Notes under the pieces: generated by a model
The model's input: the letters and a program-made list of their open reading frames with translations, nothing else
Told to the model about the DNA's origin: nothing
Databases searched by the model: none
Assembly (NCBI GenBank): GCA_016209535.1
Contig: JACQVW010000755.1
Coordinates: 1-38,675, forward strand
Direction: 5' to 3'
From: Planctomycetota bacterium
Lineage (GTDB): Bacteria; Planctomycetota; UBA8108; SXIK01
Length of the DNA: 38,675 nucleotides
Made by a program: the position numbers and the translations under genes
Shown: in pieces, positions 18,992 to 33,761 of the stretch
Position numbering within the stretch: the first letter of the stretch is position 1
Layout: every line of letters starts with the position of its first letter

Positions 18992-20141
18992 TCAGCGGCT
19001 TTCGGCGCGGCTCGAGTACCGCAGCGCCGTCTCCCGCGTGATCTCCCCGCCCTCCACGAGGTCCTCCAGGTGCCGCTCGAGGGTGATCAGGCCCTCCTTC
19101 CTCTGCGTCTGCATCTGCGTGTAGATCTGGTGCCAGTTCCCCGTCCGGATCAAGTTGGCGACGGAGGGCAGGTTCTTGAAGACCTCCATCGCCACTCGAC
19201 GGCCCGGCCCGCCGGCGCGGGGGACGAGCTTCTGCGCCAGGACCTGGGTGAGGCTGAAGGAGAGCTGCGTGCAAAGCTCCTTCGCCCGCTCCGGAGGGAA
19301 CAGATCCACGATCCTCGAGAGCACCCCCACGGAGTCCTTCGTGTGGAGCGTCGAGAAGACGAGGTGTCCCGTCTCCGCCGCAGTGAGGGCGAGCGATGTC
19401 GTCTCGGGGTCGCGCATCTCCCCCACGAAAATGATGTCGGGATCCTCCCTCAGCGCGCTCCGCAGCCCGGAATGGAAGGAGGGCACGTGCCTCCCGACCT
19501 CCCTCTGCGAGATGAGAGCCTTCGAGCCCTCGAAGACGTACTCGATGGGATCCTCGAGGGTGATGATCCGGACCTTCTGCGTCTGGTCGATGCGCTGGAG
19601 GAGGCTCGCCACCGTCGTGGACTTGCCGCTCCCCGTGATGCCGGTGACGATGACGAGACCTTGCTCGAGGCCCACGACGTCCTTCCAGACCCGCTCCGTG
19701 GGGAAGCCGATGGACTCCACATCGGGGATCGCCCTGGGCAGGACGCGGAGCGCGCAAGCCATGCCGCGCCTGTCGCGGAAGACGTTGATGCGGAAGCTGA
19801 GGCGCTCCTCCTGCCACTCGAAGCCGGCGTCCGCGTCCTGGGCCGCGCCGGATCGGAGCTTCTCCACGACGGCGGGGGCGAGCAAAGGGAACACGAGGTC
19901 CTCGATGGCCGTGGGTGAGTGGCTCCGCTCCGGGGAGCCTCTCGAGCTCGGCGTCGAGCCGGTAGGTCGGCGGCTCCCCCACGACGAGGTGCAGGTCGGA
20001 GAGGCCGGAGATGCCGTTCCGGACGTAGCGCGTATCGGTGAAGCGGCGAAGGAGATCGAAGATGCCCGCGCCGATGCCGACCCCGTCGCGTGAGGAAGGG
20101 AGGCTGCTTGGCGGCGATCCGGTAGGCTGGGGTGTGTCCAT
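18992..20141 (-). pseudogene. pilT: PilT-like type IV pilus retraction ATPase, split by a frameshift
   Basis: Homologous sequence runs from ATG 20141 to the stop at 18992, but in two frames. The first frame carries GLSDLHLVVGEPPTYRLD..ELERLPGAEP, the PilT N-terminal domain. The second carries TAIEDLVFPLL onward: Walker A GITGSGKST, the Asp box with EDPIEYVFEG, Walker B DPDIIFVGEMRDPE, and the His box ETGHLVFSTLHT. The change falls at about 19908-19921, in the tract that reads ACTCACCCACGGCC on the coding strand. Two lost bases would restore EPLTPTAIEDL exactly; one extra base is equally possible. All catalytic motifs are intact, so this may be a recent mutation, an assembly error or, less likely, recoding. 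No other pilus gene is in the window. GGAGG lies 10 nt before the start. Confidence 0.85.
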
Positions 20142-20250: not shown

Positions 20251-21648
20251 CTACCCGCACGCCCCAGGAGCCTCGCAGCCCTGCCCGTCCTCCGTCGGGT
20301 CCTCGCCGCACCCTGGATACGGAGCCGGCGGCGCGCGCCCGCCCTGGAAGAGGAAGCCCAGCACGTAGACCGCGGCCGAGAGCGTGAGCTGCCCCTCGTC
20401 GGCCGCGTCGGCCCCATCGAGGCACGGCGGCGCCGCGGCGCCGAGGAAGAGGAACTCGAGGGTGCGCACGGCGTCGGAGATGTCCAGGGCGCCGTCCGCG
20501 TTCGAGTCCCCGCGAAGGAAGCGCGGCCCCCTCGAACGGTCCTGCACGACGCGGAGGACCACAAACTCGGCAGGCCGGATCGGCGCTGTGCCCACAACGA
20601 TCACCGTGCGGCCTTGGTCCAGGTCGTCCTGGGTCATGGTCGTCCGGTCGGCCCTGACGAAGAACGCCTCGTCAGGCGCAGCGCCCTGCAGGGCGCCCTC
20701 GCGCCAGAGGCCCAGGAGGAAGTCCGCCACGCTGGCCCTCAGCCGGGCCCACAGGGGCTCGTCGTTCGGCTCGAAGACCGCCCACTCCGTCCCGTCGTGG
20801 ATCGACTCCTCGAGGAAGAGGAAGAAGCGCCGCACGTTGACGTACTTCCACTCGCGGTCGCTCGAGACGGTCCTCGCGCCCCAGACCAGGACTCCCCTGT
20901 CGGCGATCCAACGCAGGACGCTGATCCCCGCGCCCATGAGGGAATCCTGCTCGGCCGTGGAGAGCCGCCGGCTCACGTCCGCGGCGCCGAGGACCTCGCC
21001 CGTGGGGGCGCGCCAAACGCCCTGCTCGCGGTCCGTCCGCGCACAGACGCCGGCGACGAAGCCGCTCGGGGGCAAGGCCAGCCCAGCGGCCGCCGCCGGC
21101 GGCCGGACCCAGGGGTAGTAGAGGGCCGCGAAGCCGCCGTCGGACCGGAGCCTCTCGCGCTGGGCCCGCACGGCGGCGGGGTCGGCCTCGGGGTCCGGGT
21201 CCAGGAGCGCGATGCGGTCCCCCAGGGCCTCGCAGTGGGCGATCATGGCGGCCTGGACCGCGGGCAGGGTCACGCCGGGGAGGCAGAGGATGCTGACCTC
21301 GTCCACCGAGCGGAGGGCCTCGAGGCCCTCCGCGTGATCCTTGGTCGGGTCCGCGACGCGGACGACGTGGCAGCGCGTCCCGCCGTTCTCGAAGAAGGCC
21401 CTCACCGAGTAGGCCAGGAACGCGTGCTTCTCCGAGACGGGGAGGGGACTCCCGAAGACCCTCTCGAACTCCGCGAAGGACGTGAGGAGGACCGGAGCGT
21501 AGAGCTTCCCTCGCTCCGCCCTGCCGACGAAGGCCGCGGTGCTCGTGGGCAGCCGCTCGATCTCCTGAGCCGCGGCGCGGGAGCAAGGAAGGACGCTGAG
21601 CAGAAGGACGCAGAGCAGGAAGAGCAACGCCAGGCGCTGTCTCGTCAT
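20251..21648 (-). CDS. Contractile-tail (eCIS-type) sheath protein with signal peptide and C-terminal dockerin-like cassette
   Basis: A 465-residue protein in three parts. (1) Residues 1 to about 26 look like a cleavable signal peptide (MTRQRLALLFLLCVLLLSVL, then SRAAAQ). (2) About 29-375 is a phage/eCIS tail sheath: LPTSTAAFVGRAERGKLYAP, FFENGGTRCHVVRV, VWGARTVSSDREWKYVNVRR, TEWAVFEPNDEPLWARLR, TTMTQDDLDQGRTVIVVGTA, RPAEFVVLRV. These are hallmark sheath motifs, including the C-terminal domain that interlocks in the sheath. (3) About 378-465 is a planctomycete dockerin-like cassette: DSNADGALDISDAVRTLEFL, then a second, degenerate loop (DAADEGQLTLS), ending in a Cys/Gly-rich tail. Sheaths normally assemble in the cytoplasm, so export is unexpected. 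No tube, baseplate or ATPase gene is nearby. ATG 21648 was chosen because it begins the signal peptide. Confidence 0.85.
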   Translation of the reverse strand: MTRQRLALLFLLCVLLLSVLPCSRAAAQEIERLPTSTAAFVGRAERGKLYAPVLLTSFAEFERVFGSPLPVSEKHAFLAYSVRAFFENGGTRCHVVRVADPTKDHAEGLEALRSVDEVSILCLPGVTLPAVQAAMIAHCEALGDRIALLDPDPEADPAAVRAQRERLRSDGGFAALYYPWVRPPAAAAGLALPPSGFVAGVCARTDREQGVWRAPTGEVLGAADVSRRLSTAEQDSLMGAGISVLRWIADRGVLVWGARTVSSDREWKYVNVRRFFLFLEESIHDGTEWAVFEPNDEPLWARLRASVADFLLGLWREGALQGAAPDEAFFVRADRTTMTQDDLDQGRTVIVVGTAPIRPAEFVVLRVVQDRSRGPRFLRGDSNADGALDISDAVRTLEFLFLGAAAPPCLDGADAADEGQLTLSAAVYVLGFLFQGGRAPPAPYPGCGEDPTEDGQGCEAPGACG

Positions 21649-21719: not shown

Positions 21720-22316
21720 ATGGGGGCCATGCCCCCCTCCCCCGAAGGGTCCACCTGGAGCGCCCGCGCCACGGTCGAGCTCGTCCTCGAGGCGAAGAAG
21801 AAGAGCCCCAAGGCCTGGGGCGCTCTCTTCAAGCGCTGCGAGACGGACATGGCGAACTTCTGCCGGCACTTCATGGGGCCCAACGACCCGCTGCGGCGCA
21901 TTTGCGAGACCCAGGACATCCTCCACGAGGCGTTCGTGCAGGCCATGGAGAAGATCGACTGCCTGGAGAACGACGCGGCGTTCTACGCCTGGATCCGAAC
22001 CATCATCCGGCGGAAGATCTCCCTCAAGCGCCGCGACGACCTCCGCGACCGCCTGGGGGCCGAGGCCATGGACCGCGGGGCCCTCGACACCTTCGAGAAG
22101 GACCTGGCCACGAGCGATGAGGCCGTGAGGGTCCTCGACGCGATCCTCGAGCTCTTCCCCGAGCACCCCGAGCCCATGACGGTCTTCTCGCTCCTCCAGC
22201 TCGAGAAGGGCTCCACGCCGGAGACCCTCGTCGACTCCCTCGGCATGTCCCGCCGCACGGTCTACCGGAGGCTCGAGGAGGGGGCGAAGCTGCTGCGGAA
22301 GAGGCTGGAGGGATAG
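21720..22316 (+). CDS. ECF-like RNA polymerase sigma factor
   Basis: A 198-residue protein with sigma-70 region 2 in the N-terminal half (AWGALFKRCETDMANFCRHF, then RICETQDILHEAFVQAMEKI and AAFYAWIRTIIRRKISLKRR) and region 4 at the C-terminus (GSTPETLVDSLGMSRRTVYR, a helix-turn-helix). It should direct RNA polymerase to a specific promoter set. No anti-sigma gene is adjacent. It is divergent from the sheath gene with 71 bp between starts, so a link to its expression is possible but unproven. ATG 21720 is used here; ATG 21729 is equally likely. Confidence 0.88.
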   Translation: MGAMPPSPEGSTWSARATVELVLEAKKKSPKAWGALFKRCETDMANFCRHFMGPNDPLRRICETQDILHEAFVQAMEKIDCLENDAAFYAWIRTIIRRKISLKRRDDLRDRLGAEAMDRGALDTFEKDLATSDEAVRVLDAILELFPEHPEPMTVFSLLQLEKGSTPETLVDSLGMSRRTVYRRLEEGAKLLRKRLEG

Positions 22317-23175: not shown

Positions 23176-25626
23176 TCACGGGCACTTCCCGTACGCCGCG
23201 CACCCCAGCGTGTCCTGGCCGCCCGTGGTGGGGTCGGTGCCGCAGTCGGGGCCCGGGGCCGGCGGGGCCGGGCCGCCGAGGAAGTGGTACGCCAAGGTGT
23301 GGATGGGGTCCGAGATGTCGTAGAGCCCGTCGTCGTTCGAGTCCGCGGCGTCGAGGCAGGCCGGCGGGGCGCCGCTGACGAAGAGGTAGGAGAGGCTCCA
23401 GACCGCGTCGGAGATGTCGAGCTTGCCGTCGCCGTTCGAGTCGGAGCGGAGGAACTCGACGAGAGGCGGGAGGGGCGGGAGGCTCACGCTCTTCACGCTC
23501 ACGGCGGACCGCTCGTGCCCGCGGATCGGGATCTGGTTCGCCGTCAGCGCCGCGATGAGCTCGAACTGCTGGCTCTCGTCGTAGGTGACGCGGAGGACCT
23601 TCTGGCAGTCGTCGCCGGGGGGCTCGGCCGCCTGGGAGATGATCGCTCCCAGCGGCGCGGTGAGGCTCCAGACGTGCGGCCGCAGGAGCCCGCAGGCCGG
23701 CACCTCGTCGGCGCCGCCGCCACCCGTGTCGAACCCGGAGCGCGCCGACCTCCCGTCGAGGTCGATGCGGCCGATCTCGCGCGGATCGGGGCAGATGTCG
23801 GCGATGGGGGCCGGCACAGCCTCCGGCTCCGGCACCTCGGGGCCGAGCTCGAAGAGGACCGCGATCGCGTCGGACCCGAGGGCGTCGGGGTAGAAGGCCG
23901 ACAGGTGGACGTCCCCCGTGAAGGGCCGCGAGCGGCCGGGGCTGTTCCCGATGTGGAGCGGCAGGTCCAGGTCCCAGGCGCTCAGGTCGCCGGCCTGCGA
24001 GTCGCTCGCCGCCTCCTGGCCGTCCACGTAGAAGCGGTGGGTCGCCCCCTCGCGCACGAAGGCGAGCTGGTGCAGCCGATCCTCGGCGAAGCTCGGCGCC
24101 GTCACGCGGAAGGTCACGAGGCCCGCCGAGGTGTCCACCTGGGCGACGTAGGCGCGAGCGCCCTCGGCGCCGAGCATCCAGTTGAGGTCGATGCCGACTT
24201 GCGTCTCGCGCGACGACGAGAAGATGAAGGCCGGAGAGCCCGGTGACGCGAGCTGCTCGTCGGGCACGTTCGAGAGCCAGACCTCGATGGTGAAGCGGTC
24301 GATGACCTGGGAATTCACCTTGGCGCCTCCCGAGGCCGACGAGTAGACCCGGCTCGGGACGCCGGTGAACTCCGGGTCGCAGTCGGGGTCGAAGCGCACC
24401 GCCGACGGGAGCTGCCCCCCGGTGACCGACCGGGCCGCGCAGGGCGCCCCCGGCGGCTGGAGATCGAGGTCCAGCGGCGGCTCGACGGGCGAGGAGTCGG
24501 GGAAGGGCGTGAAGGGGTCGCCGATCTCGAGGCCGCCGCCCGCGCCGTCCCCGCCTCTCCCGCCTCCTCCCCCGCCCGCCACACCGCCCGGCGCCCGGTA
24601 GAGCGCCGCGGGGTGGGCCGGGTCGATCACGGTGATCCTGAGCTCGAGCTCACCGGATCCGCTGTCGTTCTCGGCCCGGACGATCACCGTGTGCTGGCCG
24701 AGCTCGGGGATCCCCGGAGACCAGGCGATGAGCCCCGTCCCGGAATCGATCGCGAGCCCGGCGGGCACCGTGGCGGCCCTCCCCTGCCCCGCGGCCAGGC
24801 TGAAGGCCGGCGGCGGCGAGCCCGCCGAGAGCGTGACGGGCAGGCGGAAGGGTCGCCCCGCGAGCGCCACCGCCAGCGCCGGGTCCACGGGCAGGATCGC
24901 CGGCGCCGACGGGGCGACGCCGGGCCCGCCCACGACGGAGACCCCGACCTCGGCATGCCCGCAGCGTTCATCGCTCGGCCCGATGGCCGGGTCGACGATC
25001 GCCCGGCTCACGTCCAGCTTCACCTTGTAGGACCCGAGCGCAGGGAAGCGCACCAGGGTGAGGCCGTCGTGGGGCCGGAGCACGGCAGCGCTGGCGCCCT
25101 CCACGGCCCACGTGAAGCGCGGCGCTGGCCCCCCGGCGCGCCCCTTCGAGGCGCGGCCGTCGTAGACCGCGAGGACCGGCCCGCCGGGCCAGGCGATGGT
25201 CCTGGGGCCGCTGATCGCGGCCGAGGGCGGCGTGCAGTCCGGCGGCGCGGCGCCGCAGAAGCCCGACGGGTACGCCCTGCAGTCGAGCATGTCGACGGGC
25301 GGCACGGGGTCGGGCCCGCAGAAGTCGGGCCCAGGAGGCGGCGGCGCGTCCACCGCAGAGCCCGCCGCGTAGCGGAAGACGAGGAGCGCGTCCTGGAGCT
25401 CGACGATGCCGTTGTCGTCCGCGTCGAGAGCGTCGAGGCACGCGGGGGGCTCGGCGCCGCCAAAGAGGTGGAGCATGATGAGCTCCGCGTCCTCGCAGTT
25501 CACGCAGCCGCTCTGGTCCGCGTCGCCCCGCTTGAAGAGGGCCTGGGCGCGGAGGGCCCGCGTGGGCCCGAGGCCCGCGGCCGCGGCGAGAAGCAAGATG
25601 GGGATGATGGTCCTTCGCGGCGACAT
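23176..25626 (-). CDS. Secreted multidomain protein: two dockerin-like cassettes, Ig-like domain, LamG-like domain
   Basis: An 816-residue exported protein. The signal peptide is RRTIIPILLLAAAAGLGPTR. A first EF-hand pair lies at about 32-86 (GDADQSGCVNCEDAELIMLH, then DADDNGIVELQDALLVF). A He_PIG/cadherin-like beta domain is at about 255-330 (GLAIDSGTGLIAWSPGIPEL), and a Gly-rich linker at about 345-365. A LamG/concanavalin-like domain spans about 438-595 (IDRFTIEVWLSNVPD, THRFYVDGQEA). A last EF-hand pair is at about 725-816 (DSNGDGKLDISDAVWSLSYL, DSNDDGLYDISDPIHTLAYH), with canonical calcium ligands in both loops. The protein is probably surface bound or extracellular and carbohydrate or matrix binding; no catalytic site is seen. 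ATG 25626 begins the signal peptide; a GTG at 25701 would add a 25-residue lysine-rich leader. Confidence 0.85.
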   Translation of the reverse strand: MSPRRTIIPILLLAAAAGLGPTRALRAQALFKRGDADQSGCVNCEDAELIMLHLFGGAEPPACLDALDADDNGIVELQDALLVFRYAAGSAVDAPPPPGPDFCGPDPVPPVDMLDCRAYPSGFCGAAPPDCTPPSAAISGPRTIAWPGGPVLAVYDGRASKGRAGGPAPRFTWAVEGASAAVLRPHDGLTLVRFPALGSYKVKLDVSRAIVDPAIGPSDERCGHAEVGVSVVGGPGVAPSAPAILPVDPALAVALAGRPFRLPVTLSAGSPPPAFSLAAGQGRAATVPAGLAIDSGTGLIAWSPGIPELGQHTVIVRAENDSGSGELELRITVIDPAHPAALYRAPGGVAGGGGGGRGGDGAGGGLEIGDPFTPFPDSSPVEPPLDLDLQPPGAPCAARSVTGGQLPSAVRFDPDCDPEFTGVPSRVYSSASGGAKVNSQVIDRFTIEVWLSNVPDEQLASPGSPAFIFSSSRETQVGIDLNWMLGAEGARAYVAQVDTSAGLVTFRVTAPSFAEDRLHQLAFVREGATHRFYVDGQEAASDSQAGDLSAWDLDLPLHIGNSPGRSRPFTGDVHLSAFYPDALGSDAIAVLFELGPEVPEPEAVPAPIADICPDPREIGRIDLDGRSARSGFDTGGGGADEVPACGLLRPHVWSLTAPLGAIISQAAEPPGDDCQKVLRVTYDESQQFELIAALTANQIPIRGHERSAVSVKSVSLPPLPPLVEFLRSDSNGDGKLDISDAVWSLSYLFVSGAPPACLDAADSNDDGLYDISDPIHTLAYHFLGGPAPPAPGPDCGTDPTTGGQDTLGCAAYGKCP

Positions 25627-25669
25627 CTTCGCTGGCTTCGCTGACTTCGCGTCCTTCGCTCGATTCGCT
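25627..25669 (-). repeat. Imperfect 9-bp tandem repeat just upstream of the start
   Basis: Four to five copies of a GCGAAGNNN unit run up to the ATG at 25626. If translated they would read AKDAKSAKPAK. Placed between promoter and start, they could lie in the 5' leader. They are probably non-coding, because the signal peptide begins after them. Confidence 0.5.
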
Positions 25670-25818
25670 CCTGGCGGTCGACCCGCCGCCAGCCCAGACA
25701 CGTGTCAAGGCCCAATTGTGCCAGGAAATCCGCGGGCTGTCCTGGTTTTTCGAGGCCGCGGAGCGCGGGGCGCGGGACGCGGGGGCTTGGCGCCGGGCGC
25801 CGGGCGCCGGGGGCGCCG

Positions 25819-31592: not shown

Positions 31593-33761
31593 ATGATCCA
31601 GGCCCTCCTCCAGCGCGCCGGCGCGTGCAGGCTGTGCCGCGACGACCTGCGGGCTCTCGCCACCGAGTTGCCCGGCGACGACCCGGCCCTCGACCGCCTC
31701 CTCTCCGAGGCGGCATCGGCGAGCGACGCCCACGCCTTCACCCACACGCTGCTCTCGGCCCTGAGCGCTGGCCGGCGCGTCGACGCGCGCCACCTCGTCG
31801 ACGGCGCGGCCCTCCTCCTGGATCCCGGCTGGCTCGCGGTCGCCGCCATGCACTCGAGCGGCGAGGTGGCGGCGGCGCTCGTGGCCGCCGTCCAGACGCG
31901 CCGGATGCCGTGGGAGCGCGAGGCGGCGGCCCTCTTTCTCGCCGGGGAGTGGTGCCGCGAGCGGCGTTCCGGCGTCTTCCCGGCGGAGCTCATCGCCTGC
32001 GCCCGCACCTCGGCCCGGCGCCGCGGTCTCGATCCGACGGCCCACGTGCTTCTCGTGGCCCTGTCGGACATCCTCCACGACGGCGACCTGGCCTCCATCC
32101 TCGGCGCCGGCGAGCTGGGGCCCCTGCGCGGCGTCGCGCACCGGATGGGGGAGGACCTCCTCGCCCTGGCCAGGAGGCCGGTGATCGAGACCCTCCCCGA
32201 GGAGCCGCCGCCGGCGGCGCTCGACGGCCCGATCCGGCGGGCCGCCCCACGAGTCGGCCGCAACGAGCCTTGCCCCTGCGGCAGCGGAAGGAAGTACAAG
32301 CACTGTTGCCTGGAGAGGGACCAGAAACGCCTCGAGCGCTCTTCGACCGTGCCGGGTCTCACGGTCGAGGAGCTGCGGGAGCGCCCCGAGGCCGGGGTCA
32401 CCCGGGAGCGCCTGCGGGAGATGCAGCCCCACGAGCTCGGGCGTCTCGACGCGGCGAAGCTCGAGCCCGACCTGCACCCCGTCCTGGTCAACCGCCTCCT
32501 CCTCTTCGGGGAGGTCGACGGCGCGATCCGTGTGCTCGAGAGGGCCGGCCTCCACCAGTCCCTCGCCGAGCACTGGTTGGACGCGGTCGATGCCGCCACG
32601 GCGCAGCGCCGGGGCGAAGCGATCGAGCGCCTCCTCGCCCTGCGGCCGGACAGGGAAGCGGCCGAGGGGAAGCTGGACCTCGGCGCGAGGCTGCTCCTCC
32701 TCGCGGGGCAAGGCAAGGAGCCGCCCCTCGCCACGGTCGAATCGGAGGCCCACCGCTGCCTGCGCCTCGAGCCGGAGACGACCGACCTCGTCGACCTGGC
32801 GTACATGCTCCTCGACAGCCACTTCCCGGCGCTGGGGATCCTGGTGGCGAGGGGCGCGGTCCCCGTGACGAACGGCATGGACGCCGAGTCGCTCCACGAG
32901 GCGCTCCTCGAGGCCCGCGACCGGCTCCAGCTCCCGGCCCGCGACCTCATCGACCCCGTGTACGAGCAGGTCTTCCGCGAGGACGCGGAGGAAGGGGACG
33001 GCGGGAACCGCGAGGCCCTCGAGGAGGCCCGGCGGCGCATCCAGGCCAAGGACACCGAGGTCCACAGGCTCCGCGAGGAGCTGGGGGCGCTCGTGAAGCG
33101 GATCGCGGCGGCCCCGGGACGGCCGGCGCAGCCCGCCCGGGCCGCGCCCGGGCCGGCTCCGGCTCCGGCTCCGCCACCGGCTCCGGCACCGGCTCCGGCA
33201 CCGGCTCCGGCGCCCGCCGCGCCGCCGAAGGTGGAGCCGGCTCCGGACCCGGCGGCGCTCGAGCTGCGCAAGCGCGTCGCGCGCCTGGAGGCGGAGCTCA
33301 AGGAGCGGCATTCGGAGCGCAACCAGCTCCGGCGAGAGCTGCGCGAGACCGCGAGGAGCATGGAGGCGCTCCGGGCGAAGGCCGCTCCGGCGGCGCCGGC
33401 CGCCGCCGAGGCCGCCGCTGCTGCCGCCGCCGAGGAGGAAAGCCTCCTCGCCGAGGGGGACGTCGACGCGCTCCACCCGCCGCGCGTGCCGGTCTTCTCG
33501 CCGCGGTTCCGCCAGGACTGCGCGGCCATCCCGCGGCACGTGGTGCGCGCGGCCTTGCGCGCCGCCGGCCGGCTATCCGCCGGCGACGCGGCCGCCTTCC
33601 GCGACTCGAAGCGCCTCGAGGGCTGCCGCGACGTCCTGCGCGCGAGGGTCGGGATCAGCTACCGGCTGCTCTTCCGCCTGGGGGACGATACCTTGGACGT
33701 GCTGACCCTGGTGAGCCGGGAAGACATGATGAAGACGATCCGGACGCTGGTGAAGGGGTGA
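31593..33761 (+). CDS. SEC-C motif protein with coiled coil and C-terminal RelE/ParE-like domain
   Basis: A 722-residue protein. The N-terminal region (1-215) is helical, with an early CRLC pair. At about 222-240 sits a SEC-C zinc motif ([17 protein letters not shown]), the type that binds zinc and ribosomes or SecB in SecA. A helical, TPR-like middle follows. At about 508-548 is a Pro-Ala repeat linker, then a charged coiled coil ([20 protein letters not shown]). The last 90 residues, [19 protein letters not shown] to [19 protein letters not shown] with [20 protein letters not shown], match the RelE/ParE toxin fold, including the basic strand and the YRLLFR segment. An mRNA or ribosome link is plausible. 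Whether the domain cleaves RNA is unknown. Confidence 0.8.
33153..33214 (+). repeat. 6-bp tandem repeat encoding the Pro-Ala linker
   Basis: About ten CCGGCT/CCGGCA units encode alternating Pro and Ala between the middle region and the coiled coil of the SEC-C protein. Slippage would change linker length by two residues per unit without shifting the frame. Confidence 0.75.

Follow-up and report, generated by a model that had tools for sequence, protein, structure and literature searches.

Introduction

Sheath proteins are usually treated as cytoplasmic parts that are meaningful only inside a contractile machine. In the solved machines, neighbouring sheath subunits of a ring are joined N-terminus to C-terminus, and the 'handshake' sheet so formed docks onto the subunit underneath (PMC10457771); the same handshake between N- and C-terminus is present in AlgoCIS (PMC8894135). 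Lengthening the N-terminal linker of a T6SS sheath protein alone alters contraction (PMC5797969). For other planctomycetes, a cohesin/dockerin 'planctosome' has been proposed (PMC6461901).

The protein described here has the complete core fold, the motifs and the C-terminal strand of minimal one-domain CIS sheaths such as Afp2 and Pvc2, and of the related sheaths 8bky and 9ezm. Unlike these sheaths, it has no N-terminal arm, begins with a predicted signal peptide, carries a 93-amino-acid C-terminal domain and lacks adjoining tube and baseplate genes. The nearest sheath found (L113) is 51% identical to its core. With the dockerin/cohesin proteins of the planctosome it shares a signal peptide and an EF-hand-type dockerin-like cassette, and cohesin-like domains, which belong to the planctosome proposal, likewise occur in its genome; its partner domain, in contrast, is a tail sheath, neither peptidase nor adhesin.

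Layout of the gene and its neighbourhood

The sheath gene occupies positions 20251-21648 on the minus strand of the window, that is, the whole stretch of 38,675 nucleotides analysed here. It starts with ATG and forms one uninterrupted frame of 465 amino acids, in which a predicted signal peptide (residues 1-28), a minimal eCIS sheath core (29-372) and a dockerin-like tail (373-465) follow one another.

20251..21648, minus strand: whole gene, predicted signal peptide plus eCIS-type sheath core plus dockerin-like tail (single frame; Pfam, PHROG, PDB and fold matches)
21565..21648, minus strand: predicted signal peptide (residues 1-28), standing where sheaths have their N-terminal arm (MTRQRLALLFLLCVLLLSVLPCSRAAAQ)
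20533..21564, minus strand: sheath core (residues 29-372) with PAEFVVLRVV as its C-terminal strand (sequence, fold, 57 of 61 near-invariant positions)
20254..20532, minus strand: dockerin-like C-terminal cassette, residues 373-465 (tblastn-type matches genome-wide; alignment of 72 tagged ORFs)
20473..20508, minus strand: canonical EF-hand-type calcium loop DSNADGALDISD, residues 381-392 (sequence)
21720..22316, plus strand: ECF-type sigma factor, 198 amino acids (Pfam PF07638, E 1.4e-10; PF04542, E 1.3e-7)
18992..20141, minus strand: downstream PilT-type ATPase gene (Pfam T2SSE, E 4.5e-47) with a frame break near 19920, either an assembly error or real

The divergent sigma factor gene named in the original prediction is of the ECF type, and its start codon lies 71 bp from that of the sheath gene. 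That prediction also stated that tube, baseplate, cap and ATPase genes were missing nearby, and in the window neither these nor a CIS AAA+ gene could be recognised; the ATPase downstream of the sheath gene is of the PilT type and not a CIS ATPase. Contractile sheaths are encoded with tube and baseplate, an arrangement absent from the window. The closest homologue of the PilT-type gene in the order (G004, 64%) stands in different surroundings on a short contig, with no sheath gene adjoining. PADLOC gave no defence-system match for the sheath gene or its close neighbours, no RNA element or tRNA was found near it, and a promoter and terminator scan around it gave nothing above chance. Elsewhere in the window, a 722-amino-acid ORF (31593-33761, plus strand) has a SEC-C motif and matches a ParE-like toxin domain.

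Erroneous joining of the signal peptide or the tail to the sheath during assembly is a very improbable reading of the three-part layout. The source is a single draft genome of 906 contigs (G000), and the frame break in the next gene can be taken to mean that this contig is not error-free; against this, both junctions are in frame, base composition is that of coding DNA throughout, and signal peptide plus cassette is precisely the combination that many other proteins of the genome carry.

Identity, fold and constraint of the sheath core

The eCIS/phage sheath motifs quoted in the original prediction are present, and Pfam, PHROG, PDB and fold matches concur. Pfam analysis of the 465-amino-acid protein identified Phage_sheath_1 at residues 104-260 (E 5e-21) and Phage_sheath_1C at residues 262-368 (E 1.4e-13). 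The core matches a PHROG profile annotated 'tail sheath' (E 3e-55) and the solved eCIS sheaths 9ezm of Halogeometricum borinquense (E 3e-90) and 8bky of the Streptomyces coelicolor CIS (E 2e-87). An AlphaFold model, built from 34 sequences, reached pLDDT of at least 90 over 270 residues, and the structural comparison suggested earlier retrieved the same sheaths by fold, with 9gts as the best Foldseek match (E 1e-33, TM 0.84 by target length). By Pfam, PDB, model and Foldseek alike, the protein thus has a sheath core with the sheath fold. In the model the C-terminal strand spans residues 362-369 and is followed by the 93-amino-acid cassette.

At least 90% of homologues agree at 61 alignment columns; the window core departs from them at four of these, other sheaths at 0-10. 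The gene resembles its neighbours in codon usage and third-position G+C. Since the core keeps 57 of the 61 near-invariant positions and codon usage is native, the gene is, judged by its sequence, no obvious pseudogene. The tree places the core among main-sheath sequences (L113 and L032, for example), on a branch of length 1.23 against a median of 0.15. Native codon usage and retained core constraint suggest that the gene has long been resident and that its product probably still folds; it appears to be an old, fast-diverging resident in which the fold-defining positions were kept. A phage origin of the core was considered and rejected, as phage sheaths reach at most about 31% identity among the matches listed and eCIS sheaths up to 51%.

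A signal peptide in place of the N-terminal arm

As originally predicted, the protein begins with a signal peptide, MTRQR-LALLFLLCVLLLSVLP-CSRAAAQ, which has a strong n/h/c pattern with a mean h-region hydropathy of 3.6 and AAA before the likely cleavage point. The same signal-peptide test was passed by only 8 of 1820 ATG starts with at least 50 open codons in stretches of the source genome. Cytoplasmic sheaths carry no export signal, and this protein has a strong predicted one. Its N-terminus is modelled with low confidence by AlphaFold. A lipoprotein reading was rejected, since VLPC, with proline before cysteine, is no acceptable lipobox.

The comparison drew on 80 genome contigs as well as 29 loci of the phylum, which together gave about 110 sheath reading frames. 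All complete canonical frames among them start with the arm (consensus MPxYLxPGVYVEEV) and end 2-19 amino acids past the C-terminal strand; a few frames are cut at their 5' ends, and the arm was judged only where the N-terminus was readable. With 47 viral-contig loci added, none of the roughly 150 compared frames has a signal peptide or a tail. It had been proposed that a signal peptide absent from homologues would prove an annotation artefact. The absence is real, but the artefact reading is not borne out, because the window protein is a fusion and not a mis-annotation. Its homology to sheaths begins at the PIEGV/EIERL position, directly past the arm, and no arm is found in frame upstream of the gene. 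A hidden upstream arm was also looked for in every frame; all that turned up was 'APGV', a chance occurrence that is out of frame and has no further arm-like sequence with it.

The protein thus lacks the N-terminal handshake arm and does not end with the C-terminal strand, which is followed by the cassette. Because the signal peptide replaces the arm that forms the handshake, canonical polymerisation or self-assembly is unlikely on anatomical grounds. This bears on the view, put forward originally, that the exported sheath forms an extracellular fibre or tube by self-assembly. Retention of the core fold, of the near-invariant residues and of the C-terminal strand speaks for such a fibre; the missing arm speaks against it, as do a 93-amino-acid domain past the strand, where normal sheaths have 2-19 amino acids, and the altered T6SS contraction that follows mere linker lengthening (PMC5797969). 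Taken together, we consider a self-assembling fibre improbable.

The dockerin-like tail and the cassettes of the genome

The tail had been likened to an EF-hand cassette of the secreted protein at 23176, and alignment identified two copies of the cassette there.

23176..25701, minus strand: separate exported protein with two cassettes, Laminin_G_3 and a putative Ig domain (Pfam, cassette alignment)

The tail of the window protein has one canonical calcium loop and one degraded loop, and Pfam Dockerin_1 gave no match in the protein at E 0.01; in both respects it differs from planctosome dockerins. Dockerin_1 matches 7 of 34 tagged proteins of the genome.

A tblastn-type search revealed cassette matches in at least 150 other places of the genome, mostly at 43-66% identity; this figure counts scored places out of several hundred candidates, with more left unscored. 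A set of 72 tagged ORFs was drawn from 60 stretches of the genome and the window. Scored with the same loop pattern as the window tail, 34 of the 72 sampled ORFs have exactly two calcium loops. In 46 ORFs no more than 15 amino acids separate the cassette from the C-terminus; many others have it directly behind a signal peptide. A simple signal-peptide test was passed by 37 of the 72, many others being cut by contig ends or uncertain in their start. Partner domains of the cassette include FG-GAP, TIG, lamin-tail, CotH, PKD, subtilase and cohesin. Such domains are typical of surface or secreted proteins. Sequence comparison indicates that the window tail is a generic cassette of this genome, present on unrelated proteins, many of them with signal peptides.

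Eight matches to cohesin-like domains were found in the genome, most of them weak (best E 4e-9); contigs C896, C129 and C517 carry such domains. With its 150 or more copies on varied exported proteins, the cassette is a candidate docking, sorting or stability module.

Tail genes elsewhere in the genome and in the order

No other sheath and no gp25 was recognised by Pfam in the genome of the window. Its sole recognised tube domain is on contig C226, inside an Rhs protein (Phage_T4_gp19, E 1.4e-29). The corresponding Rhs/YD-repeat ORF (L149:3-5222) exceeds 1700 amino acids and carries the tube domain, of eCIS type and truncated, at its C-terminal end. All nine other genomes of the order examined have at least two tube domains, mostly side by side. 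In another genome (G003, contig C153), a lone tube-family protein (L160:8342-8890) has a hydrophobic signal or anchor at its N-terminus and belongs to no tail cluster seen on the contig.

Analysis of relatives revealed an eCIS-like cluster of the order composed of FHA coiled-coil, DUF4255-like, short sheath-like, two tube, baseplate and PP2C phosphatase genes; those outside the Pfam scan were assigned by eye. Each of the eight clusters read has, before its tubes, a short sheath-like gene without a tag.

L157:11618-12586: degenerate cluster sheath
L158:10287-11396: degenerate cluster sheath
L159:13919-15046: degenerate cluster sheath
L161:7978-8919: degenerate cluster sheath
L162:1868-2959: degenerate cluster sheath
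L163:7506-8447: degenerate cluster sheath
L164:7884-8861: degenerate cluster sheath
L165:7912-8859: degenerate cluster sheath
L171:7463-9922 (contig C4 of the window's genome): end of the order's tail cluster, with baseplate fragment, gpI-like gene and PP2C phosphatase

Pfam gave no match for the two cluster sheath-like genes submitted to it, and hhalign placed the set with sheaths (probability 99.4, E 8.6e-22). Like the window protein, these are sheath homologues without the N-terminal arm (alignment A3). They differ from it in lacking also the GART block and the C-terminal strand, in being untagged and without evident signal peptide, and in their location in the cluster before the tubes. The order-wide cluster with its degenerate sheath is possibly a non-contractile, injection-like machine.

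The fragment on contig C4 keeps one end of the cluster, the rest being cut by the contig end. The original prediction had named a tail cluster elsewhere with matching dockerin-tagged parts as an outcome that would overturn it; a cluster does exist on C4, but its readable parts are untagged. Because the window's genome keeps this cluster end on C4 and the clusters of relatives have their own degenerate sheath, the exported sheath is separate from the tail cluster. That the window protein is nevertheless the sheath of the C4 cluster, encoded apart from it, is very improbable. The expected sheath-gene part of that cluster lies beyond the contig end, which leaves room for such a role; set against it are the short untagged sheath-like genes before the tubes in the eight clusters of relatives, a signal peptide that would part the protein from cytoplasmic assembly, and the missing arm.

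Occurrence of the architecture

Search with the whole protein returned cassettes only, hence the core alone was used as query. In 392 genomes of the phylum, core matches were found in 41, and besides the window gene none was closer than 51%; the loci listed were inspected individually. The search for the same architecture in planctomycetes, suggested originally, thus left a singleton in the 392 genomes, which are a sample of the phylum and not exhaustive. Phage_sheath_1C was found in no other gene among 29 genomes of the class. Among phages and plasmids, no record covering 80% of the window protein was found, and a plasmid-borne copy was rejected, no record having the full architecture. No paper in the literature searched joins 'tail sheath' and 'dockerin'.

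The main rival to a captured, exported module is a neutral chimera, in which recombination, in a genome rich in cassettes and signal peptides, fused a stray sheath gene into an exported form without selected function. The singleton architecture, the long branch and the degraded calcium loop are in keeping with it, and the Rhs-tube fusion in the same genome suggests a break-up of tail genes. The intact 465-codon frame with native codon usage, and a core that despite its long branch keeps the near-invariant positions as well as working sheaths do, argue in the other direction; overall we regard neutrality as possible and rather unlikely.

Proposed origin and role

On balance, our analysis leans towards a captured sheath fold that serves as an exported, cassette-docked module and neither contracts nor forms fibres. 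In this reading the host export repertoire would have captured a canonical minimal eCIS sheath gene; recombination would have substituted a Sec-type signal peptide for the N-terminal arm and joined the common dockerin-like cassette of the genome to the C-terminus. The product is predicted to be exported and, according to the model, to fold as a sheath domain; with the arm absent, it would be incapable of the normal handshake between N-terminal arm and C-terminal strand. The tail may display or dock it outside the cytoplasm, plausibly on the cohesin-like partners of the same genome, where, monomeric or as a small oligomer, it could serve as a folded module with a binding or structural role. We infer export, docking, monomeric state and function from these features. 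Occurrence in one genome only, the long branch, the degraded loop and the weak cohesin matches weigh against the captured-module reading.

The original proposal of sheath re-use is upheld as far as exported re-use is concerned, because a real sheath core, a signal peptide and a shared tail are combined with no local tail cluster; its self-assembling fibre or tube is not supported, the handshake arm being missing. A further reading is that parts of the tail machine became extracellular building blocks, the exported sheath domain still binding sheath or tube domains in a surface structure docked by calcium cassettes. The tube domain on the Rhs protein of the same genome and the lone tube with signal or anchor in G003 can be cited for it; we hold this reading to be highly doubtful.

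If the captured-module reading is true, this is the first case found of a sheath fold used as an exported module, in which the arm gave way to an export signal and a docking cassette was added. It would mean that the cassette-rich planctomycete secretome is able to absorb even phage-tail parts. The order-wide eCIS-like cluster with its degenerate sheath invites a testable question, namely whether it is an injection-like machine that does not contract, and may perhaps be of more interest to specialists than the exported sheath itself.
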